Positions 7,376 through 40,021 of a stretch of DNA of 64,000 nt are shown piece by piece (the stretch's first letter is position 1; each line of letters opens with the position of its first letter). The notes beneath the pieces are model-generated. The model had not been told where the DNA came from. It saw only the letters and a program-made list of their open reading frames with translations, and ran no database searches. A program made the translations under genes and the position numbers. The stretch is taken from NCBI RefSeq assembly GCF_017355875.1, contig NZ_JAFEWC010000001.1, positions 62,001 to 126,000 on the forward strand, given 5' to 3'. Source of the DNA: Aridibaculum aurantiacum (GTDB lineage: Bacteria > Bacteroidota > Bacteroidia > Chitinophagales > Chitinophagaceae).

Positions 7376-8734
7376 ATGAGAAGTGTATTTATAATATTAA
7401 TGGCTTTAGGCATTGTTGCCATGCCATCCTGTAAAAAGAAACTGGATCTTAATCCAACAGCTTCGCTTGCCCCTGAAACAGTAACGGCAAACGATATTGG
7501 CAAACTCTTGAATGGTATTTATGATGCCTTGCAAAACGGTGGTACTACCTTCTACTATCTAAGCGATGTTACAGAAGATTTGTCTGCTGATAACCTGCGC
7601 TACAGGGCAACATTCTTTCAACATGGAGAAGTAGATAACAATGCTATTCTTTCCAACAATGTATTGACTGAACGCTATTTCATCGGGCCTTACAATATGA
7701 TACAAAGAAGCAACGATGTAATTGAGATTGCAGAAGCTTCAAGTTTACCAGAGGCCACTAAGAAGAATGCTTTGGGTGTGGCTTATTTTGCAAGGGCTTT
7801 TGGCTACTATAGGTTGGTAACGCTGTTTGGCGGTGTACCTATACTTCTTACAAGGTCAATAGAGCAAGTGCCAAGAAACACTGAAGCAGAAACATATAAC
7901 CAGATAATTGTTGATTTATTGAAGGCGATAGATAATGCTCCCTCAGTTACCAGCAATGCCTACATATCCTCAGAAGCGGCCAAAGCACTTCTTGCAAGGG
8001 TATACCTGATAAGGAAGGATTACCAGAATGCGAAGAAGTACGCAGAGGAAGTGATCAACAGCGGGAAGTTCGCACTTACTACCAACTACGAGGCAATGTT
8101 GAATAGTCCCATAGGAAATCCGGAAGTCATATTCGCCCGGCAGTTCACTCCGACTGAAGGCGAGAACTCATTGTACTTTTTCCTGCAACACCCTACTATG
8201 CCAGGTAGCGGAAGGGCAGAACTTCCAGTAGATAATTCTTTTATAGCTGCGTTTGAACCGAATGATATTCGTCGCGCTTCCATTGTGCAAGAAATTGTAG
8301 CACCTGCTTCAAATCCTGGTTGGTATGTAAAAAAGTATAGGGATCCGGCAGGTGCTGCAGCACACCCAATTTACGTGGTGCGGCTTGCAGAAATGTATCT
8401 CATTTCAGCCGAGGCGGAATATTTCATTTCTAATATGAATACCACCAATGCACAAATGCTAAACAGGCTGAATGAAGTAAGAACCAAGCGTGGATTAACC
8501 GCAGTTACCTCTGCTGACCTGTATACCATCATCAGGGAGCGCCGTATAGAACTAGCTTTTGAAAACTTGCGGTGGACGGATCTGAAACGTACGCCTGATC
8601 CGACAACTACATCTAAATCTATGGCGCAGGTATACGTGGAATCTAAAGGAAGGACAGTGAATGATCTCCTTTATCCTATACCACAAAACCAGATTGACGT
8701 TAATCCCAAACTTGTTCAAAATCCTGGCTATTAG
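7376..8734 (+). CDS. SusD/RagB-family nutrient-binding lipoprotein
   Basis: This 452-residue lipoprotein has a short signal ending in a lipobox (AMPSC, Cys at about 19), so it is anchored in the outer membrane facing out. The body has the alpha-helical TPR-like fold of SusD proteins: the N-terminal part includes ALGVAYFARAFGYYRLV, and the C-terminal part includes YVVRLAEMYLISAEAE and LYTIIRERRIELAFENLRW. SusD acts as a lid on the SusC channel and captures the nutrient. It is translated directly after susC, and a terminator follows at 8760. At 452 residues it is at the short end of the family. Confidence 0.95.
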   Translation: MRSVFIILMALGIVAMPSCKKKLDLNPTASLAPETVTANDIGKLLNGIYDALQNGGTTFYYLSDVTEDLSADNLRYRATFFQHGEVDNNAILSNNVLTERYFIGPYNMIQRSNDVIEIAEASSLPEATKKNALGVAYFARAFGYYRLVTLFGGVPILLTRSIEQVPRNTEAETYNQIIVDLLKAIDNAPSVTSNAYISSEAAKALLARVYLIRKDYQNAKKYAEEVINSGKFALTTNYEAMLNSPIGNPEVIFARQFTPTEGENSLYFFLQHPTMPGSGRAELPVDNSFIAAFEPNDIRRASIVQEIVAPASNPGWYVKKYRDPAGAAAHPIYVVRLAEMYLISAEAEYFISNMNTTNAQMLNRLNEVRTKRGLTAVTSADLYTIIRERRIELAFENLRWTDLKRTPDPTTTSKSMAQVYVESKGRTVNDLLYPIPQNQIDVNPKLVQNPGY

Positions 8735-8759
8735 CAGCTGGTAGTAATAGCAACAATAA

Positions 8760-8797
8760 AAGGCTGTCTCAATCAATGAGGCAGCCTTGTTTTTTTA
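8760..8797. terminator. Rho-independent terminator after susD
   Basis: A stem of about 10-12 bp (AGGCTGTCTCA paired with TGAGGCAGCCT, one G-T wobble) has a 5-base loop and a run of seven T. It lies between the convergent susD and nadB genes. The T run is on the plus strand, so it mainly stops susD transcription. Confidence 0.8.
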
Positions 8798-8822
8798 CGA
8801 CGGTAATAATTTATCTGGTATT

Positions 8823-10424
8823 CTACAAGATAACGTTCTCCATTATCTCTGACTTCTCAGGGTAGTCTGTATTGAAATGCAAGCCGCGGCTTTCTTTTCT
8901 AAACTGTGCTCCTTTTACAATCAGGTAACCAACAGAGATCAGGTTGCGCAGTTCGCACAGTTGCGGCGAAACATAGGTAGTCTGGTATAGTTGTTCTGTC
9001 TCTTCGTAAAGCAGGTCCAGTCGCTTCATAGCACGCGCCAAACGCACAATGGTTCGCACAATACCTACATAGTCACTCATGATCTGCTGCAGCTCTTTCA
9101 GGCTCTGTGTTATCAGGATCATTTCATCTGGTTCACGTGTTCCTTTTGCATCCCAATCAGGTACAGTATTTCGCCTTTTGTTGTTCTTTGCCAGCGGTTC
9201 ACGCTGTATACTATCCAGGTATGCACGATGTCCGAAAACCATAGCCTCTAACAAGCTATTGCTGGCAAGGCGGTTGGCACCATGCAAGCCTGTACTGGCA
9301 CATTCGCCGCAGGCATACAGATTTTTGATAGATGTGCGTGCCCATTCATCGGTCCTTATTCCACCACAGCTATAATGCGCCGCAGGCGCTACAGGAATCA
9401 TGTCATCGGCTATGTCTATGCCAATGCTCATACACTTCTCGTAGATGTTTGGAAAATGGTGAATGAACTTATACTTATCCATGTGGCGGCAGTCCAGGTA
9501 TACATGCTCCGTACCACCTTTTTTCATTTCATTATCTATGGCACGTGCTACTATATCACGTGGTGCAAGGTCTTTTCGTGAATCATATTTCTCCATGAAA
9601 GCCTCGCCAGCTTTATTGCGCAAAATGCCGCCATCGCCGCGTACGGCTTCTGTTATCAAAAAAGAAGGAGAGACGCCGGGTTCAAAAAGCGCAGTAGGGT
9701 GAAACTGGATGAACTCCATGTTTTCAATCCTGCCTTTTGCACGGTATACCATAGCCACGCCGTCGCCTGTAGCAATAGTTGGATTAGTAGTGGTGCGATA
9801 GGCTTGTCCATTTCCTCCGGTTGCCAGAATGGTAACGGTGGATAAGACCTTTTCTATCTGGTTCGTCTCCAGGTTTAGCAGGTATACACCATAACATTCT
9901 ATGTCGGTAGTAGCTTTGGTAACAAGGTAACCGAGGTGGTGCTGTGTAATGATATCGACCACGAAGCAGTGCGTTATAAGATCAACGTTGGGAAGGCTCT
10001 CGATCTTCTTTAGCAGCGCACGTTCCATTTCCTTACCTGTTACATCTTTGTGGTGCAGGATGCGGTTCATGCTATGCCCGCCCTCTTTGCCAAGAGAATA
10101 ATCACCATCGGGATCTTTATCGAATTGCGCTCCCCATTCAATGATCTCACGGATGCGCTGCGGCCCTTCCTTCACTACAATCTCTACAATGGCTTCATTG
10201 CAAAGGCCATCGCCAGCCACCAATGTATCTTCTATATGTTTTTGAAAACTATCCGCCTCATCCCATACGCCGGCTATACCGCCTTGTGCATATTTGGTAT
10301 TGGTTTCATCAGAATAAGCTTTGGTGATGATGGTTACCTTTTTTTCAGGACGTGCTTCGGCAACTTTAACGGCATATGTAAGGCCGGCTATTCCGCTGCC
10401 TATAACAAGGAAATCAGTTATCAT
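8823..10424 (-). CDS. nadB: L-aspartate oxidase
   Basis: The 533-residue flavoenzyme oxidises L-aspartate to iminoaspartate, the first step of de novo NAD synthesis. The N-terminal FAD-binding motif is VIGSGIAGLTYAVKVAE. The fumarate-reductase-family core contains KYAQGGIAGVWDEADS, GGNGQAYRTTTNP, EFIQFHPTAL and the conserved HGANRLASNSLLEAMVFGHR. The C-terminal helical domain is present, and length is normal for NadB. The ATG overlaps the stop of the upstream PIN-domain gene in an ATGA arrangement, so the two are probably co-transcribed and translationally coupled. nadA and nadC are not in the window. Confidence 0.95.
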   Translation of the reverse strand: MITDFLVIGSGIAGLTYAVKVAEARPEKKVTIITKAYSDETNTKYAQGGIAGVWDEADSFQKHIEDTLVAGDGLCNEAIVEIVVKEGPQRIREIIEWGAQFDKDPDGDYSLGKEGGHSMNRILHHKDVTGKEMERALLKKIESLPNVDLITHCFVVDIITQHHLGYLVTKATTDIECYGVYLLNLETNQIEKVLSTVTILATGGNGQAYRTTTNPTIATGDGVAMVYRAKGRIENMEFIQFHPTALFEPGVSPSFLITEAVRGDGGILRNKAGEAFMEKYDSRKDLAPRDIVARAIDNEMKKGGTEHVYLDCRHMDKYKFIHHFPNIYEKCMSIGIDIADDMIPVAPAAHYSCGGIRTDEWARTSIKNLYACGECASTGLHGANRLASNSLLEAMVFGHRAYLDSIQREPLAKNNKRRNTVPDWDAKGTREPDEMILITQSLKELQQIMSDYVGIVRTIVRLARAMKRLDLLYEETEQLYQTTYVSPQLCELRNLISVGYLIVKGAQFRKESRGLHFNTDYPEKSEIMENVIL

Positions 10425-34379: not shown

Positions 34380-36416
34380 TCAGCCTTTCATTCCCTCCAG
34401 CTCTTTCTGCATCTTGAGCATTTCATCGCGGAGGCGTGCAGCTTCCATGAAGTCAAGGTCTTTGGCGGCTTTTTCCATTTGCTTGCGTACCTGTGTGATT
34501 CGCTTTTCCATTTGTGGGATAGTTGTGTATTCACTATCGGCTTCGGCGGCACGTGTTATCAATGTTCCGTCGTCGTCTATAGCATATTGGTTCACTGGCT
34601 CACCCTTTATGTCCAGTACCGAGGTCTGCTTCATGATCTGCTCTATCGACTTCTTAATGGTCATTGGTGTGATGCCATGTTGCAGGTTGTAAGCGATCTG
34701 TTTTTCGCGGCGCCGCGTGGTCTCATCAATTGTGCGCTGCATACTTTCAGTGATGGTATCGGCATAGAAGATCACCAGTCCATCCACGTTGCGGGCTGCA
34801 CGTCCTGCTGTCTGCGTCAGGCTCTTTTCATTACGCAGGAAACCTTCTTTATCTGCATCCAGTATCGCCACCAGCGACACCTCCGGAAGGTCCAAACCTT
34901 CACGCAGCAGGTTCACACCCACCAGTACATCTATCTCACCCAGTCGTAGCTGGCGCAATATCTCCACCCGCTCCAGTGTATCTACTTCGCTGTGTATGTA
35001 CTTGCTCTTTATGTTGATGCGTCCCAGGTATTTATCCATTTCCTCCGCCATCCGCTTGGTAAGCGTGGTTACCAACACGCGGTCACCTTTGGTAACGCGT
35101 TTGTCAATTTCATCCAGCAGGTCGTCAATCTGGTTCACGCTAGGGCGTATCTCTATCGGCGGATCCAACAGCCCGGTTGGACGAACCACCTGTTCTACCA
35201 CTACGCCACCTGTTTTCTCCAGCTCGTAATCACCGGGAGTGGCACTTACGAATACCACCTGGTTCACCATGCTCTCAAACTCGTGGAAGTTCAGTGGGCG
35301 GTTGTCAAGTGCACTTGGCAGGCGAAAACCATAATCAACGAGCACCAGTTTACGGCTGCGGTCACCACCGTACATACCAGCTATCTGCGGCACGGTCTGG
35401 TGGCTCTCGTCTATCACACAAAGAAAGTCGTCAGGGAAATAGTCAAGCAGGCAGAAAGGGCGGGTGCCGGGTTTGCGCCTGTCAAAGAAACGGGAGTAGT
35501 TCTCTACGCCGTTGCAATAGCCCAATTCCCTGATCATTTCAATGTCGTAATTCACCCTTTCGCTCAGTCGCTGAGCTTCTATAAACTTGCCGGTGTTTTT
35601 AAAATATTCCACCTGCGCCGCCATCTCATCCTGTATCTCGAAGAGCACCTGGTGCATCATGTCCTTGGGCGCCAGGTAAAGATTAGCAGGGAAAATAGCA
35701 GCATGATCTAGTTTGCTTAAACGTTTACCGGATGGCAGATCAAGTGTTTCTATCTCTTCTATCTCGTCTCCAAAGAAGGTGATGCGGTAGCCAAAATCCA
35801 CGTAAGGCAGGTTGATGTCAACAGTATCTCCTTTCACTCTAAAAGACCCGCGACCAAACTCTCCTTGGCTGCGGCTGTAGAGACTGTTTACCAGCGAGTG
35901 CAGGAAACCTTGCCTGGATATAGTTTGTCCCTGCTGGATTCGAACAATACCGTTGGCGAATTCTGTAGGGTTTCCCATACCATATATACAGCTCACTGAA
36001 GCAACGACAATAATATCGCGGCGGCCGCTTAGCAACTGCGAGGTTGCCTGCAGGCGTAGCTTGTCCAGCTCTTCGTTGATGCTCAGGTCTTTCTCAATAT
36101 AAGTATCACTTACCGGCATGTATGCTTCCGGCTGGTAGTAATCGTAGTAGCTAACAAAATATCCCACAGCATTTTCTGGGAAAAACTGCTTGAACTCACC
36201 ATACAGCTGCGCCACCAGTGTTTTGTTGTGGGTAAGCACCAGTGTTGGCCGCTGAACATTCTGGATAACATTGGCTATGGTAAAAGTCTTACCGCTACCA
36301 GTCACCCCAAGAAGCGTCTGGTACTGCTCGCCCTGCAGGATGCCTTCGGTAAGTTGTTGAATGGCCGAAGGCTGATCGCCTGCAGGCTGGTAAGGAGAGA
36401 CTAAAGAAAATGGCAT
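34380..36416 (-). CDS. uvrB: Excinuclease ABC subunit B
   Basis: The 678-residue nucleotide-excision-repair helicase loads at damage with UvrA and recruits UvrC. Walker A is GVTGSGKTFTIANV. The strand-gripping beta-hairpin region is VSYYDYYQPEAYMP. The helicase box ESHQTVPQIAGMY and the later VGVNLLREGLDLPEVSLVAI and QTAGRAARN motifs are in place. The C-terminal UVR domain (QMEKAAKDLDFMEAARLRDE) binds UvrC. Length is normal. The start ATG at 36416 lies just after a TAATTTG promoter-like element on the minus strand. The repeat array 36.5-38.3 kb lies directly upstream. Confidence 0.97.
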   Translation of the reverse strand: MPFSLVSPYQPAGDQPSAIQQLTEGILQGEQYQTLLGVTGSGKTFTIANVIQNVQRPTLVLTHNKTLVAQLYGEFKQFFPENAVGYFVSYYDYYQPEAYMPVSDTYIEKDLSINEELDKLRLQATSQLLSGRRDIIVVASVSCIYGMGNPTEFANGIVRIQQGQTISRQGFLHSLVNSLYSRSQGEFGRGSFRVKGDTVDINLPYVDFGYRITFFGDEIEEIETLDLPSGKRLSKLDHAAIFPANLYLAPKDMMHQVLFEIQDEMAAQVEYFKNTGKFIEAQRLSERVNYDIEMIRELGYCNGVENYSRFFDRRKPGTRPFCLLDYFPDDFLCVIDESHQTVPQIAGMYGGDRSRKLVLVDYGFRLPSALDNRPLNFHEFESMVNQVVFVSATPGDYELEKTGGVVVEQVVRPTGLLDPPIEIRPSVNQIDDLLDEIDKRVTKGDRVLVTTLTKRMAEEMDKYLGRINIKSKYIHSEVDTLERVEILRQLRLGEIDVLVGVNLLREGLDLPEVSLVAILDADKEGFLRNEKSLTQTAGRAARNVDGLVIFYADTITESMQRTIDETTRRREKQIAYNLQHGITPMTIKKSIEQIMKQTSVLDIKGEPVNQYAIDDDGTLITRAAEADSEYTTIPQMEKRITQVRKQMEKAAKDLDFMEAARLRDEMLKMQKELEGMKG

Positions 36417-36530
36417 ACTGCAAATTACGCAATGTGCAGGTGGTGGAGATGATGAAAATGTGAAAACGCTGGAGCAGCGGGCTCTGAATATTTTATTATG
36501 TCACTTTTTGCTTCGCCAAAAAGTAAACAA

Positions 36531-36550
36531 CCTGCCTGCCGGTAGGCAGG
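36531..36550. repeat. 20-bp palindrome inserted in the first repeat unit
   Basis: CCTGCCTGCCGGTAGGCAGG interrupts the first unit between its first and second hairpins, where the other units run straight on. CCTGCC and GGCAGG form the stem. Confidence 0.6.
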
Positions 36551-37596
36551 AAAGGCGACCGGGAATGATGTTCGGCCCATTCCAGGAGTCTTACTATTGA
36601 GCTTTTGTACAAAGTGGTGAAGGACAGCGGGGCTTTGATGCCTTAAAATAGTTATCAGGCCGTTTCAATTCTATGTTACTTTTTGCTTCGCCAAAAAGTG
36701 ACCAAAAAGGCGACCGGGAATGATGTACAGCCCATTCCCGGAGTCTTACTGTTGAGCTTTTGTACAAAGTGATGAAGAGCAGCGGGGCCTTGATGCCTTG
36801 ACTGGTTTGCAAGTGCATTAGTAGCAATTTCTCCACCAGTTATTGCAGAAGGACATCAGCCGGTTCGGTGGCGAGCGCAGCGAGACATTCAATCATTGCG
36901 CAGCTTTGATTGAAAGAAGCGGGTGGAGTCCTGGCGCAATAACGAGCGCCATGCGGCCCGAGCAAAAGAAACTCTGAATTAGTGTTGCAATATCAAACGA
37001 CTGCAGGTTAATGCTAGATCAGCTGTGATTATTTTTTACTTCTGAATTAACCGAAGCAATAGCAATTCCTTTCTTTATGTCACTTTTTGCTCCGCCAAAA
37101 AGTGACCAAAAAGGCGACCGGGAATGATGTACAGCCCATTCCCGGAGTCTTCCTATTGGGCTTTTGTACTACTGTAATGAAGAGCAGCGGAGCTTTGATG
37201 CCTTAACAGTTTTGCAAGCATATTAGTACTGATTTTACCACCAGTTATTGCAGAAGGACATCAGCCGGTTCGGTGGCGAGCGCAGCGAGACATTCAATCC
37301 TTGCGCAGCTTTGATTGCAACAACGGTTAGATTGATTTCTAATCATTCTCTTATATGTCACTTTTTTTGCGTGCCCAAAAAAAGTAACCAAAAAAAGGGC
37401 ACCGGGAATGATGTACAGCCCATTCCCGGAGATCCGCGATTAGGCTTTTGTACAAAGTGGTGAAGAGCAGAGGGGCGCTGATGCCTTGACTGGTTTGCAA
37501 ATTCTTCAACTCTCAAAATGAAGTTCCAAAAACTACTATGCATGAAAAACAAATGTTGAGGTCACAGTAGTACAATTGCTTAATCAAGGAACAGGG

Positions 37597-37658
37597 AAAG
37601 GAACGGGGTGTAATCGTTCCTTTCTTGAACTTTCTTTGTTTCAAGACAAAGAAAGTGA
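37597..37658 (+). repeat. Diverged hairpin pair within the repeat region
   Basis: Two perfect stem-loops lie side by side. AAAGGAACG / CGTTCCTTT has a 9-base loop (37597-37623). ACTTTCTTTG / CAAAGAAAGT has an 8-base loop (about 37630-37657). The second has the same form as the first hairpin of the repeat units with a different stem sequence. Confidence 0.6.
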
Positions 37659-38368
37659 CAGATGTAGGAAAATGGTTCATCCCTCAATCATCCATTCTTT
37701 TAGTTAATTACTTGTTATGTTACTTTTTGCTTCGCCAAAAAGTAACCAAAAAGGCGACCGGGAATGATGTACAGCCCATTCCCGGAGTCTTTCTATTGGA
37801 CTTTTGTACAAAGTGATAAAGAGCTTCGGGGCCTTGATGCCTTGACTGGTAGCAAGCTCATTAGTACTGATTTTACCACCAGTTATTGCAGAAGGACATC
37901 AGCCGGTTCGGTGGCGAGCGCAGTGAGACATTCAATCATTGCGCAGCTTTGATTGAAAGAAGCGGGTGGAGTCCTGGCGCAATAACGAGCGCCATGCGGC
38001 CTGAGCAAAAGAAATTCACAACTTACTGCTGCCAGTATTTAAAATTGCTTGCTTGTTTTATGCTGTGCTTTTGTTGATCCCCTGACCAATTGGATAGCAG
38101 TTCGGAGCCAATGCCTTAAGTGAACAGCAAGCCACTTCAATTCTATGTTCTTTTTTGCTTGTCCAAAAAAGAACCAAAAAAGACAGCCGCGCATGATTAC
38201 CGCCATGCGCGGCGGGTCCGCGATGTAGCAGTGGTACTACTGTGATTAAAAGCAGTGGGGCCTTGATAAGTTCCTTAGTCGGCTAAAACTCTCAATCGCT
38301 TGTTGGTATAATTGATGCGTACTTGGCCGGCAGCGCTGCTAATTTTTATTTTTGACTTTTATTTTGAC

Positions 38369-40021
38369 TTATCTAAACATCGGCGGATGCGTCTCTTCCC
38401 ACTCGGTAGCGTCCTGCAGTGCTTTGGCTACGGCAAGTAGCGTAGCATCCTGGTGAGTGCCAGCAAGAAGCGTGATGCTGGTCGGCATGTTTTGCCTATT
38501 AAATCCTGTAGGCAGACAGATAGCTGGATGACCGGTAAGATTGGTAATGGCTGATTGGTTACCGCTGCCAAAGCCGGGTGTAATGATGACATCGTAGTTA
38601 CTGAAGAACTTATGCATGGTTTGCATAAGCAGCGTACGGTGACGGTTTGCATTGATGTATTCAACCGCAGGAACAAACCTCGAGCCCCGGAAGAAGTTTG
38701 GCCAGTCATTACGAGTTTGGCGCGTCATCATATCATCCAGTGCTGATCGTGTAAATTCATCAAACGCAGCAGCACTTTCTGCACTAATGATAAGGCTCAT
38801 CATATTGAAGTGATACACGCCGCTGTCGGGAAAGTTAACCGGCTGTACGTTGGCTCCCATTTTTCTAAAAGCCTGCACCACCTTCCATTCGTTGGCCGCA
38901 GTATCTACTCTCCTGAAATAGTTGGCGGCATATCCAATCCGCAGTTTTTTTACATCAGCTTTGCCGGCATAATTAAAAGGCATGTCCACCGCGCTGGCAT
39001 CAAGACCATCTGTTCCTTTCATGTAGTAGAAAACAATGGCTGCGTCTTCTGCCGACCTGCAGATGGGGCCGATCTTATCCAAACTCCAACTTAATGCCAT
39101 TGCACCACTGCGGCTGATAGATCCGAAAGTTGGCCTGAAGCCGGTAGCGCCGCAAAGGGTAGAAGGGGTGATTATTGAACCCCATGTTTCCGTACCAATG
39201 GCAAAAGGTACAAGACCAGCAGCTGTAGCACTCGCCGATCCTGCCGATGATCCGCTGGAGCCTCTCTCCAGGTTCCAGGGATTGCGTGTGCGGCCACCGT
39301 ACCAATAATCACCCATAGCCAGTGCGCCAAGGGTGAATTTCGCCACCAGCACAGCACCTGCTTCTTTTAGCTGGGTGTAAGCATAAGCATCCTCTTCTAT
39401 CACCTGTTCCTTATATGGTTCAGCGCCCCAGGTGGTCTTGGTGCCCTTTACGGCAAAAAGATCTTTTAAACCATAAGGTATACCGTGCAGTGGTCCGCGG
39501 TACTTTCCTGCGGCTATTTCTTTATCGGCCTGTCTTGCCTGCTGCATGGCTAGGTCTTCGGTAAAAGAGATCACACATTCTAGTGTGTCGCTGTATTTCT
39601 TTAGCCGGTCGATGTAAAAGCGGGTCAGTTCTACAGAGCTGATCTTTTTGTTTTTTACCAGCGATGCCAGTTGCAAGATGTTGTAAAACGCCAGCTCGTT
39701 ACGGTTCTTTGGCAACGATACATTGGCAGGTATATTCCACTTCACCGGCAGTTGCTTTTTATTCAAATTCATTTCCGGCAGTATGGCAGAATGCGCGAAG
39801 GCAGGTGAAACATGATTTGGCAGCGATTGTTTGCGCATGTTTTCCATATCTGCGCGATGACCTTTAACGGAGGGATATAAAGAATCTATTTCCGCAGGTG
39901 TCAATTCTAATCCTATCAGTCGTGTGGCAGCATTTATGTCAGCACGAGAAATGGTATCCTGTGCAAAGGATGATAATATAAATGAGCAGCAAATGATCAG
40001 CTGTAGTATTTTCTTGTTCAT
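38369..40021 (-). CDS. Exported amidase (amidase signature family)
   Basis: The 550-residue hydrolase has a signal peptide (MNKKILQLIICCSFILSSFA/QDT). The Ser-cisSer-Lys core is present: the Lys in GIPYGLKDLFAVKGTKTTWG, and the serines in LERGSSGSSAGSASATAAGL and GTETWGSIITPST. The family cleaves C-N amide bonds in varied substrates, so the substrate here is open. The N-terminal 100 residues before the amidase domain are an extra helical region common in exported Bacteroidota members. It is a lone gene after the repeat array. Confidence 0.9.
   Translation of the reverse strand: MNKKILQLIICCSFILSSFAQDTISRADINAATRLIGLELTPAEIDSLYPSVKGHRADMENMRKQSLPNHVSPAFAHSAILPEMNLNKKQLPVKWNIPANVSLPKNRNELAFYNILQLASLVKNKKISSVELTRFYIDRLKKYSDTLECVISFTEDLAMQQARQADKEIAAGKYRGPLHGIPYGLKDLFAVKGTKTTWGAEPYKEQVIEEDAYAYTQLKEAGAVLVAKFTLGALAMGDYWYGGRTRNPWNLERGSSGSSAGSASATAAGLVPFAIGTETWGSIITPSTLCGATGFRPTFGSISRSGAMALSWSLDKIGPICRSAEDAAIVFYYMKGTDGLDASAVDMPFNYAGKADVKKLRIGYAANYFRRVDTAANEWKVVQAFRKMGANVQPVNFPDSGVYHFNMMSLIISAESAAAFDEFTRSALDDMMTRQTRNDWPNFFRGSRFVPAVEYINANRHRTLLMQTMHKFFSNYDVIITPGFGSGNQSAITNLTGHPAICLPTGFNRQNMPTSITLLAGTHQDATLLAVAKALQDATEWEETHPPMFR

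Follow-up and report, generated by a model that had tools for sequence, protein, structure and literature searches.

What occupies the gap upstream of uvrB in Aridibaculum aurantiacum, where structured repeats stand one behind the other, and is their fold maintained as RNA or as DNA? The window, that is, the whole 64,000-nucleotide stretch of DNA analyzed here, contains this array at 36.5-38.3 kb, between uvrB on one side and an amidase-like gene on the other (both names derive from the original prediction and from reading of the translations). The array probably consists of accumulated copies of a non-autonomous, MITE-like or REP-like mobile DNA of the Chitinophagaceae, with a conserved core that folds as DNA.

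Units of the array beside uvrB

Sequence inspection, repeat finding and alignment all bear out six predicted plus-strand units (Table 1). The shared orientation noted for at least six units holds for these; a seventh, u7, lies on the minus strand, and the diverged hairpin noted at ~37630 is the first hairpin (H1) of u7. The individual stems were also recovered as described: the stem of the second hairpin (H2), CCGGGAATG/CATTCCCGG, in five units, with the mismatched CATTCCAGG in u1; the altered H2 stem of u6, CCGCGCATG (38187)/CATGCGCGG (38204); and the H1 variants ACTTTTTG, ACTTTTTTTG (37360) and GTTCTTTTTTG (38147). The loop lock, the mirrored spacer and the seventh unit go beyond that description.

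Table 1 Features of the array and its flanks (positions in the window; model matches are from cmsearch)
Feature	Position	Strand	H1 start (approx.)	Description	Model match
uvrB	34380-36416	-		Gene on one side of the gap	
u1	36496-36655	+	36500	H1; 20-bp palindrome interrupting the A-rich spacer; loop complement; H2 carrying a single mismatch; tail	36500-36617, 43.8 bits, E 6.2e-7
20-bp palindrome	36531-36550	.		CCTGCCTGCCGGTAGGCAGG, inside the A-rich spacer of u1	
u2	36670-36815	+	36675	Lock TCGCC/GGCGA; H2 CCGGGAATG/CATTCCCGG; tail	93.1 bits, model seed
E2 (family D2) after u2	36809-36974	.		Repeat finding	
u3	37074-37219	+	37079	Lock CGCC/GGCG	102.9 bits, model seed
E2 after u3	~37214-37330	.		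Repeat finding	
u4	37354-37502	+	37357	7-T/7-A H1; lock GTGCCC/GGGCAC	75.0 bits, not seed
u7	37550-37660	-		H1 ACTTTCTTTGT/ACAAAGAAAGT; loop complement TCTTGAA/TTCAAGA; H2 GAAAGGAACG/CGTTCCTTTC; spacer lost	37563-37656 (-), 55.2 bits, E 1.1e-9, not seed
u5	37714-37857	+	37719	Lock TCGCC/GGCGA	96.3 bits, model seed
E2 after u5	~37852-38017	.		Repeat finding	
u6	38142-38273	+	38147	H1 GTTCTTTTTTG; lock TGTC/GACA; H2 GCCGCGCATG/CATGCGCGGC	91.7 bits, model seed
Amidase-like gene	38369-40021	-		Gene on the other side of the gap	

Units comprise, in order, H1, an A-rich spacer, a stretch able to pair with the loop of H1, H2 and a tail; the tail is conserved, and the conserved core measures ~100 nt. 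In a typical unit the 5' part reads GTYAC-T(5-7)-G, a loop mostly of 6, C-A(5-7)-GTRAC, the A-rich spacer and the loop-complementary segment; the stem sequence of H2 is free, its loop is near ATATACAGCC (exactly so in 21 of 121 units), and the tail contains about GATTAAGCTTTTGTACTACTGT. Complementarity between the H1 loop and the segment just before H2 takes forms such as TCGCC/GGCGA, GTGCCC/GGGCAC and TTGTC/GACAG, the last with one G-T. Over 91 loop/segment combinations, the mean longest Watson-Crick complement was 4.18, versus 2.82 (s.d. 0.09) when the segments were permuted, with a maximum of 3.13 in 2000 permutations; fewer than four pairs were available in 26 of the 91. This pairing, the lock, would make the 5' half of a unit an H-type pseudoknot. 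Because u7 has lost its spacer, its lock and H1 cannot coexist, and a related copy elsewhere (L019:7366-7475) retains the spacer.

Units u4 and u7 together form a tail-to-tail composite of ~310 bp, which recurs on another contig of the same genome, C2, with 79% identity over 326 bp. The largest open reading frame within the array is 80 aa, so the repeats are short and have no transposase gene of their own, as is the case for MITEs. When folded as DNA and compared with 200 shuffles, six stretches (five units, one of them on both strands) gave z values of -2.8 to -6.2, with only 0-3 of the 200 shuffles as good.

Two further repeats accompany the units. E2 has been duplicated along with u2, u3 and u5, and also adjoins units on contig C2 (L018 ~8720-8853 and 9078-9215); folded as a possible structured RNA, it scored z -1.9 and -3.1 on the plus strand (two copies) and -0.1 on the minus strand (one copy). 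The 20-bp palindrome in u1 has near-identical counterparts on C2, either within units or at their tails. Its consensus, CCTGCCTGCCGGCAGGCAGG, was met inside units, at their tails or close to them (in addition to u1, at L020 6462, 7096 and 13272, and L040 120) and once at an unrelated locus (L230 105). Such varied positions would suit a further mobile palindrome of very small size.

Distribution and mobile contexts

Covariance model R1 was built from 16 seed units from several genomes, five of them from A. aurantiacum. A search of this genome and its relatives with such a model, set beforehand as the check, turned up copies beyond these units. The A. aurantiacum genome (4.86 Mb) contains 13 matches at E<=1e-5, five of which were among the seeds; they form two clusters, one of seven in the window and one of six at 64-113 kb on contig C2. 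Six weaker matches (E 0.003-0.22) lie on C2 or elsewhere. Within the family, matches at the same threshold were obtained in at least 55 of 195 genomes, a lower bound because 20 candidates were scored per genome. A scan of the phylum with 10 candidates scored each gave matches in at least five of 395 genomes, three within the family and two weak ones outside it. A scan of named genomes for one exact pattern returned four loci, two from one uncultured Chitinophagaceae MAG, one from a Bacteroidota MAG and one from Lacibacter luteus (Chitinophagaceae), and it is from the named records holding the core that the family would be Chitinophagaceae. No match was obtained in viral, plasmid and phage collections, one of these searches being by a single exact pattern only.

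Arrays also occur in other genomes: L029 has four plus-strand units ~250 bp apart and one minus-strand unit, and G069 a tandem array with a spacing of ~197 bp. In G141, the orientation relative to the replication strand, taken for 14 of 17 copies against a weak GC skew, was mixed, with no clear bias. Within the flank covered (only ~310 bp at L141), no core was found 5' of uvrB in eight of nine other genomes of the same genus, the ninth having been left out for want of a good uvrB match; one of them, G198 (L142), has a core 3' of uvrB. The amidase neighbor was not found beside uvrB in any of the eight either; the site is therefore not syntenic and affords no empty-site test, and what the comparison shows is that the array does not always accompany uvrB.

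Local neutral duplication of a chance palindrome would account for the tandem arrangement and for E2 being duplicated with three of the units. It is ruled out for practical purposes by the 13 copies in two clusters of the genome and the matches across the family, and the 62 distinct H2 5' arms described below, each with a matching 3' arm, make it more improbable still, to the point of being negligible.

Signs of mobility come from genome G149, in which the core lies inside a MITE of 218-236 bp (~220 bp) with the TIR TAGAATAATAAA and 8-bp AT-rich target-site duplications. Thirteen copies were fetched and ten of one subtype aligned; one without a TIR was left out, and nine were tested. With boundaries allowed to shift by 3, the best 8-bp match between the two flanks of a copy averaged 7.2 of 8, versus 5.7 between the flanks of different copies, and none of 20,000 permutations did as well. 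Both TIRs are within two mismatches in five of the nine copies; in each of the remaining four, one TIR or both show 3-6. The element is thus mobile in at least this one genome. The A. aurantiacum units would have spread in the same way, the TIRs and target-site duplications described here being those of G149.

A second context is provided by genome G101, where four of six fetched copies are exactly 315 bp long and carry a different TIR (TGRCTATCCGGATA); the flank match is 7.0 versus 5.6 for these four, and 6.0 versus 5.2 for all six. The core of this element retains H1 and the lock and has a different H2. The evidence for duplications is weaker here than in G149, and G101 suggests, without more, another MITE that encloses a related core between ends of its own. 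Related cores therefore sit in elements with differing ends. A class of this kind, with H1 and the loop lock kept and another H2 that has GCTCCGC in its loop, was also seen at L028, L034, L035, L036, L047, L155 and L191-L196; it is this class that forms the interior of the 315-bp MITE of G101.

Cores within MITEs of differing TIRs are also what would be seen if several unrelated MITEs, mobilized by ordinary DDE transposases, merely carried the core along, perhaps as a terminator or insulator. The fold would then matter to the host or for limiting read-through rather than for movement. Terminators, though, tolerate wobble and need no loop lock, and cores also occur in tandem arrays, here and at L029, where no such TIRs are seen. 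We regard this explanation as rather improbable.

Covariation, wobble and the mirrored spacer

Covariation was assessed in 150 aligned matches (136 distinct; 2827 cells). The alignment was fitted to the model structure, so that all the counts lean towards it. Of these cells, 97.1% pair. Changes on both sides of a pair occurred in 795 cells, versus a mean of 210.5 on shuffling and 83-148 with the structure slid along the alignment, and changes on one side in 25 cells, 14 of them at a single pair; all these covariation counts are inflated by relatedness. Selection on the folded form, as originally proposed from the compensatory changes between units, is strongly supported by these numbers.

The types of pair that are tolerated bear on the nature of the folded molecule. 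The 2827 cells comprise 2716 Watson-Crick, 29 wobble and 82 non-standard combinations. The H2 stems of 121 units contain 1169 Watson-Crick pairs, nine G-T (all from one G069 stem), two A-C and four others, with 62 distinct 5' arms, each of which has a matching 3' arm. The SRP RNA of the same family served as an RNA control (30 of 58 genomes found): its 960 cells contain 103 wobble and three non-standard combinations, with 54 one-side and 80 both-side changes. Wobble is thus ~10 times rarer in the repeat than in SRP RNA, and is rarer than mismatch in the former and commoner than mismatch in the latter; the comparison is approximate, because the SRP set is less divergent, the alignment method and the counting tool differ, and another folding tool was used. 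Given this scarcity of wobble, the fold is probably maintained as DNA, not as RNA. Both the wobble and the covariation signs are strand-symmetric, such that either strand could be the folded one, and the other strand would allow a pyrimidine-motif triplex.

A structured ncRNA or cis-regulatory RNA, tandemly repeated and selected as RNA, was one of the original candidates. Two helices and a pseudoknot that covary strongly, together with a conserved H2 loop and tail, would suit such an RNA, and an A-rich strand beside a pseudoknot stem occurs in RNAs too. The pair types are nevertheless the opposite of those in the SRP RNA of the same family, covariation in the repeat leaving less room for wobble than for non-standard combinations, and Rfam gave no match above the gathering score in 34.0-40.5 kb, the sole match at E<=1 scoring 21 bits versus a gathering score of 90. 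This candidate is accordingly disfavored, and we consider it quite unlikely.

The A-rich spacer tends to resemble the purine arm of H1. The lengths of the A-runs in arm and spacer correlate (Spearman rho 0.68 over 107 units and 0.72 over 36 distinct combinations, with relatedness retained in both). When the arm has an inner G, the spacer has a G in nine of 20 cases; in the 11 without a spacer G, the G of the arm comes after 5-7 A, which on our reading places it beyond the third strand. Among arms without an inner G, only one of 87 has a spacer G (L157), and this is part of the lock. In all five asymmetric G-containing arms the mirror order beats the direct order, with 0, 0, 1, 1 and 0 errors versus 2, 2, 3, 3 and 2 (L159, L129, L087, L173 and L135, respectively; the first two share one genus), and four symmetric cases are uninformative on this point.

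For a purine third strand to fold back on a purine arm, its order must mirror that of the arm, and the same arrangement characterizes class II intrastrand triplex elements according to the portion of Holder et al. (2015, PMC4666352) consulted; the units have the corresponding pyrimidine-purine-purine order with mirror purine tracts. As far as the five asymmetric cases go, the tendency of the spacer to mirror the arm would be the signature of a purine-motif intrastrand triplex. We put forward tentatively, as a possibility suggested by the sequences, that the core is an evolved single-stranded DNA fold in which a hairpin and its back-folded purine third strand make an intrastrand triplex, locked by loop pairing 3' of the third strand and followed by a second hairpin.

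The structure that we envisage for the mobile DNA is as follows. The core of ~100 nt would fold, most likely as single-stranded DNA, with H1 as a T-tract/A-tract hairpin whose loop is paired to the segment that follows the A-rich spacer; the spacer itself would probably return alongside the purine arm of H1 and supply a third strand. H2, a near-perfect hairpin in which the loop is conserved and the stem sequence free, and then the conserved tail would complete the structure. The fold would serve the propagation of the element itself, being recognized either by an enzyme acting in trans or by the replication fork.

Candidate mobilizers and comparison with known systems

The original prediction also included a REP-like element moved by an unlinked transposase. 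It is the candidate closest to what was found, considering the dispersed copies, the G149 MITE with its target-site duplications and the G101 MITE, but no transposase could be tied to the element in the searches below, and the link to a candidate RAYT is weak. A TIR-pattern search for an autonomous copy of the G149 MITE gave 23 places, versus 18 with a reversed control pattern, and no open reading frame was recognized by eye as a transposase at L134 and L135, where tail-to-tail units flank a gene.

The A. aurantiacum genome has five Y1_Tnp matches, of which two (L016 and L017) resemble RAYT genes. The motif of L016, YIHNNP, is the one given for subclass 2.6, and that of L017, YIHYNP, is given for other subclasses. 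The available portion of Quentin et al. (2018, PMC6006769) ascribes 'atypical secondary structures' to the flanks of subclass 2.6 of the Bacteroidetes. By eye, both RAYT-like genes (L016 1120-2140 and L017 1110-1925) have on either side two-hairpin repeats of a sequence unlike the core, with differing stems joined by a CTTAAGGAT-like link, and these may possibly be such structures. One hairpin flanking L016 occurs in this genome only as its two copies at L016, and an H1-type hairpin lies between the flanking repeats there. At G149 C106 (L284 1900-2840, minus strand), a degenerate Y1 gene is directly followed by the 3' half of a unit, to which a hairpin like those of the RAYT repeats is fused, and by a full unit ~110 bp further on.

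These loci, with the H1-type hairpin at L016 and the half and full units of G149, are what could be expected if the repeat were a REP-like element moved by a Bacteroidetes-type Y1 HUH enzyme (TnpA-REP subclass 2.6) via hairpins in lagging-strand single-stranded DNA. Tail-to-tail pairs resemble BIMEs, which fits as well. On the other hand, the flanks of 30 of 55 Y1_Tnp places contain no core (R1, E<=0.01), eight of the 30 being RAYT-like (weak profile matches) and the rest IS200-like in appearance; Y1_Tnp (PF01797) is undetected in six of 24 copy-bearing genomes, including the single-contig G141, with a profile that is weak for this group; and target-site duplications such as those in G149 are not expected of Y1 chemistry. 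Movement by such an enzyme is therefore, in our estimate, fairly unlikely. For the non-autonomous mobile DNA that we prefer, the description of a widespread element of the Chitinophagaceae opens the search for its mobilizing enzyme.

Intrastrand DNA triplexes can be made in vitro, and there is little to show that they are put to use by cells or mobile elements, according to the consulted part of Holder et al. (PMC4666352) and general knowledge of the field. A repeat family in which Watson-Crick stems, loop lock and mirrored purine strand are kept in natural variants would offer a direct test of triplex use. Were the triplex fold correct, these variants would constitute covariation evidence for a purine-motif DNA triplex at work in living cells, and the triplex-locked fold would be what is recognized in a mobile element of a new type.

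No earlier description of the element was found in the openly accessible literature, and its features are shared in part with several known systems. With bacterial MITEs it has in common the lack of its own transposase, a structured interior, and TIRs with target-site duplications in G149 (~220 bp) or TIRs in G101 (315 bp); it differs in having a conserved folded core that is common to elements with differing terminal repeats. Pneumococcal BOX elements are structured, modular MITEs. H-type pseudoknot RNAs with an A-rich loop 3, such as the preQ1-I riboswitch and ToxI, likewise have a hairpin loop that pairs downstream and an A-rich strand along stem 1, whereas the repeat combines scarce wobble, a mirror purine pattern and a mobile DNA context.

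REP, BIME and REPIN elements with their RAYT (TnpA-REP), especially those of subclass 2.6 as covered in the accessible part of PMC6006769, are also intergenic palindromic repeats that form tail-to-tail pairs and arrays. By contrast, the present core is ~100 nt long with two hairpins and a loop lock, was not found beside the 30 Y1 loci searched, and occurs in genomes of which six in 24 are without a detectable Y1_Tnp. The PIT, BoxC and TM-ECO elements, class II purine-motif repeats dispersed in bacterial genomes, share the one-strand order of pyrimidine tract, loop, purine tract, short loop and mirror purine tract (Holder et al. 2015, PMC4666352, in the portion seen). In the same portion of that paper, no such lock is described, and no transposase remnants were found near TM-ECO. 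Compared with PIT, the tracts of the present units are short and A/T-rich, the pairing partner of their loop lies 3' of the third strand, the unit continues with another hairpin and a tail, and in G149 the whole structure lies within a MITE flanked by target-site duplications.
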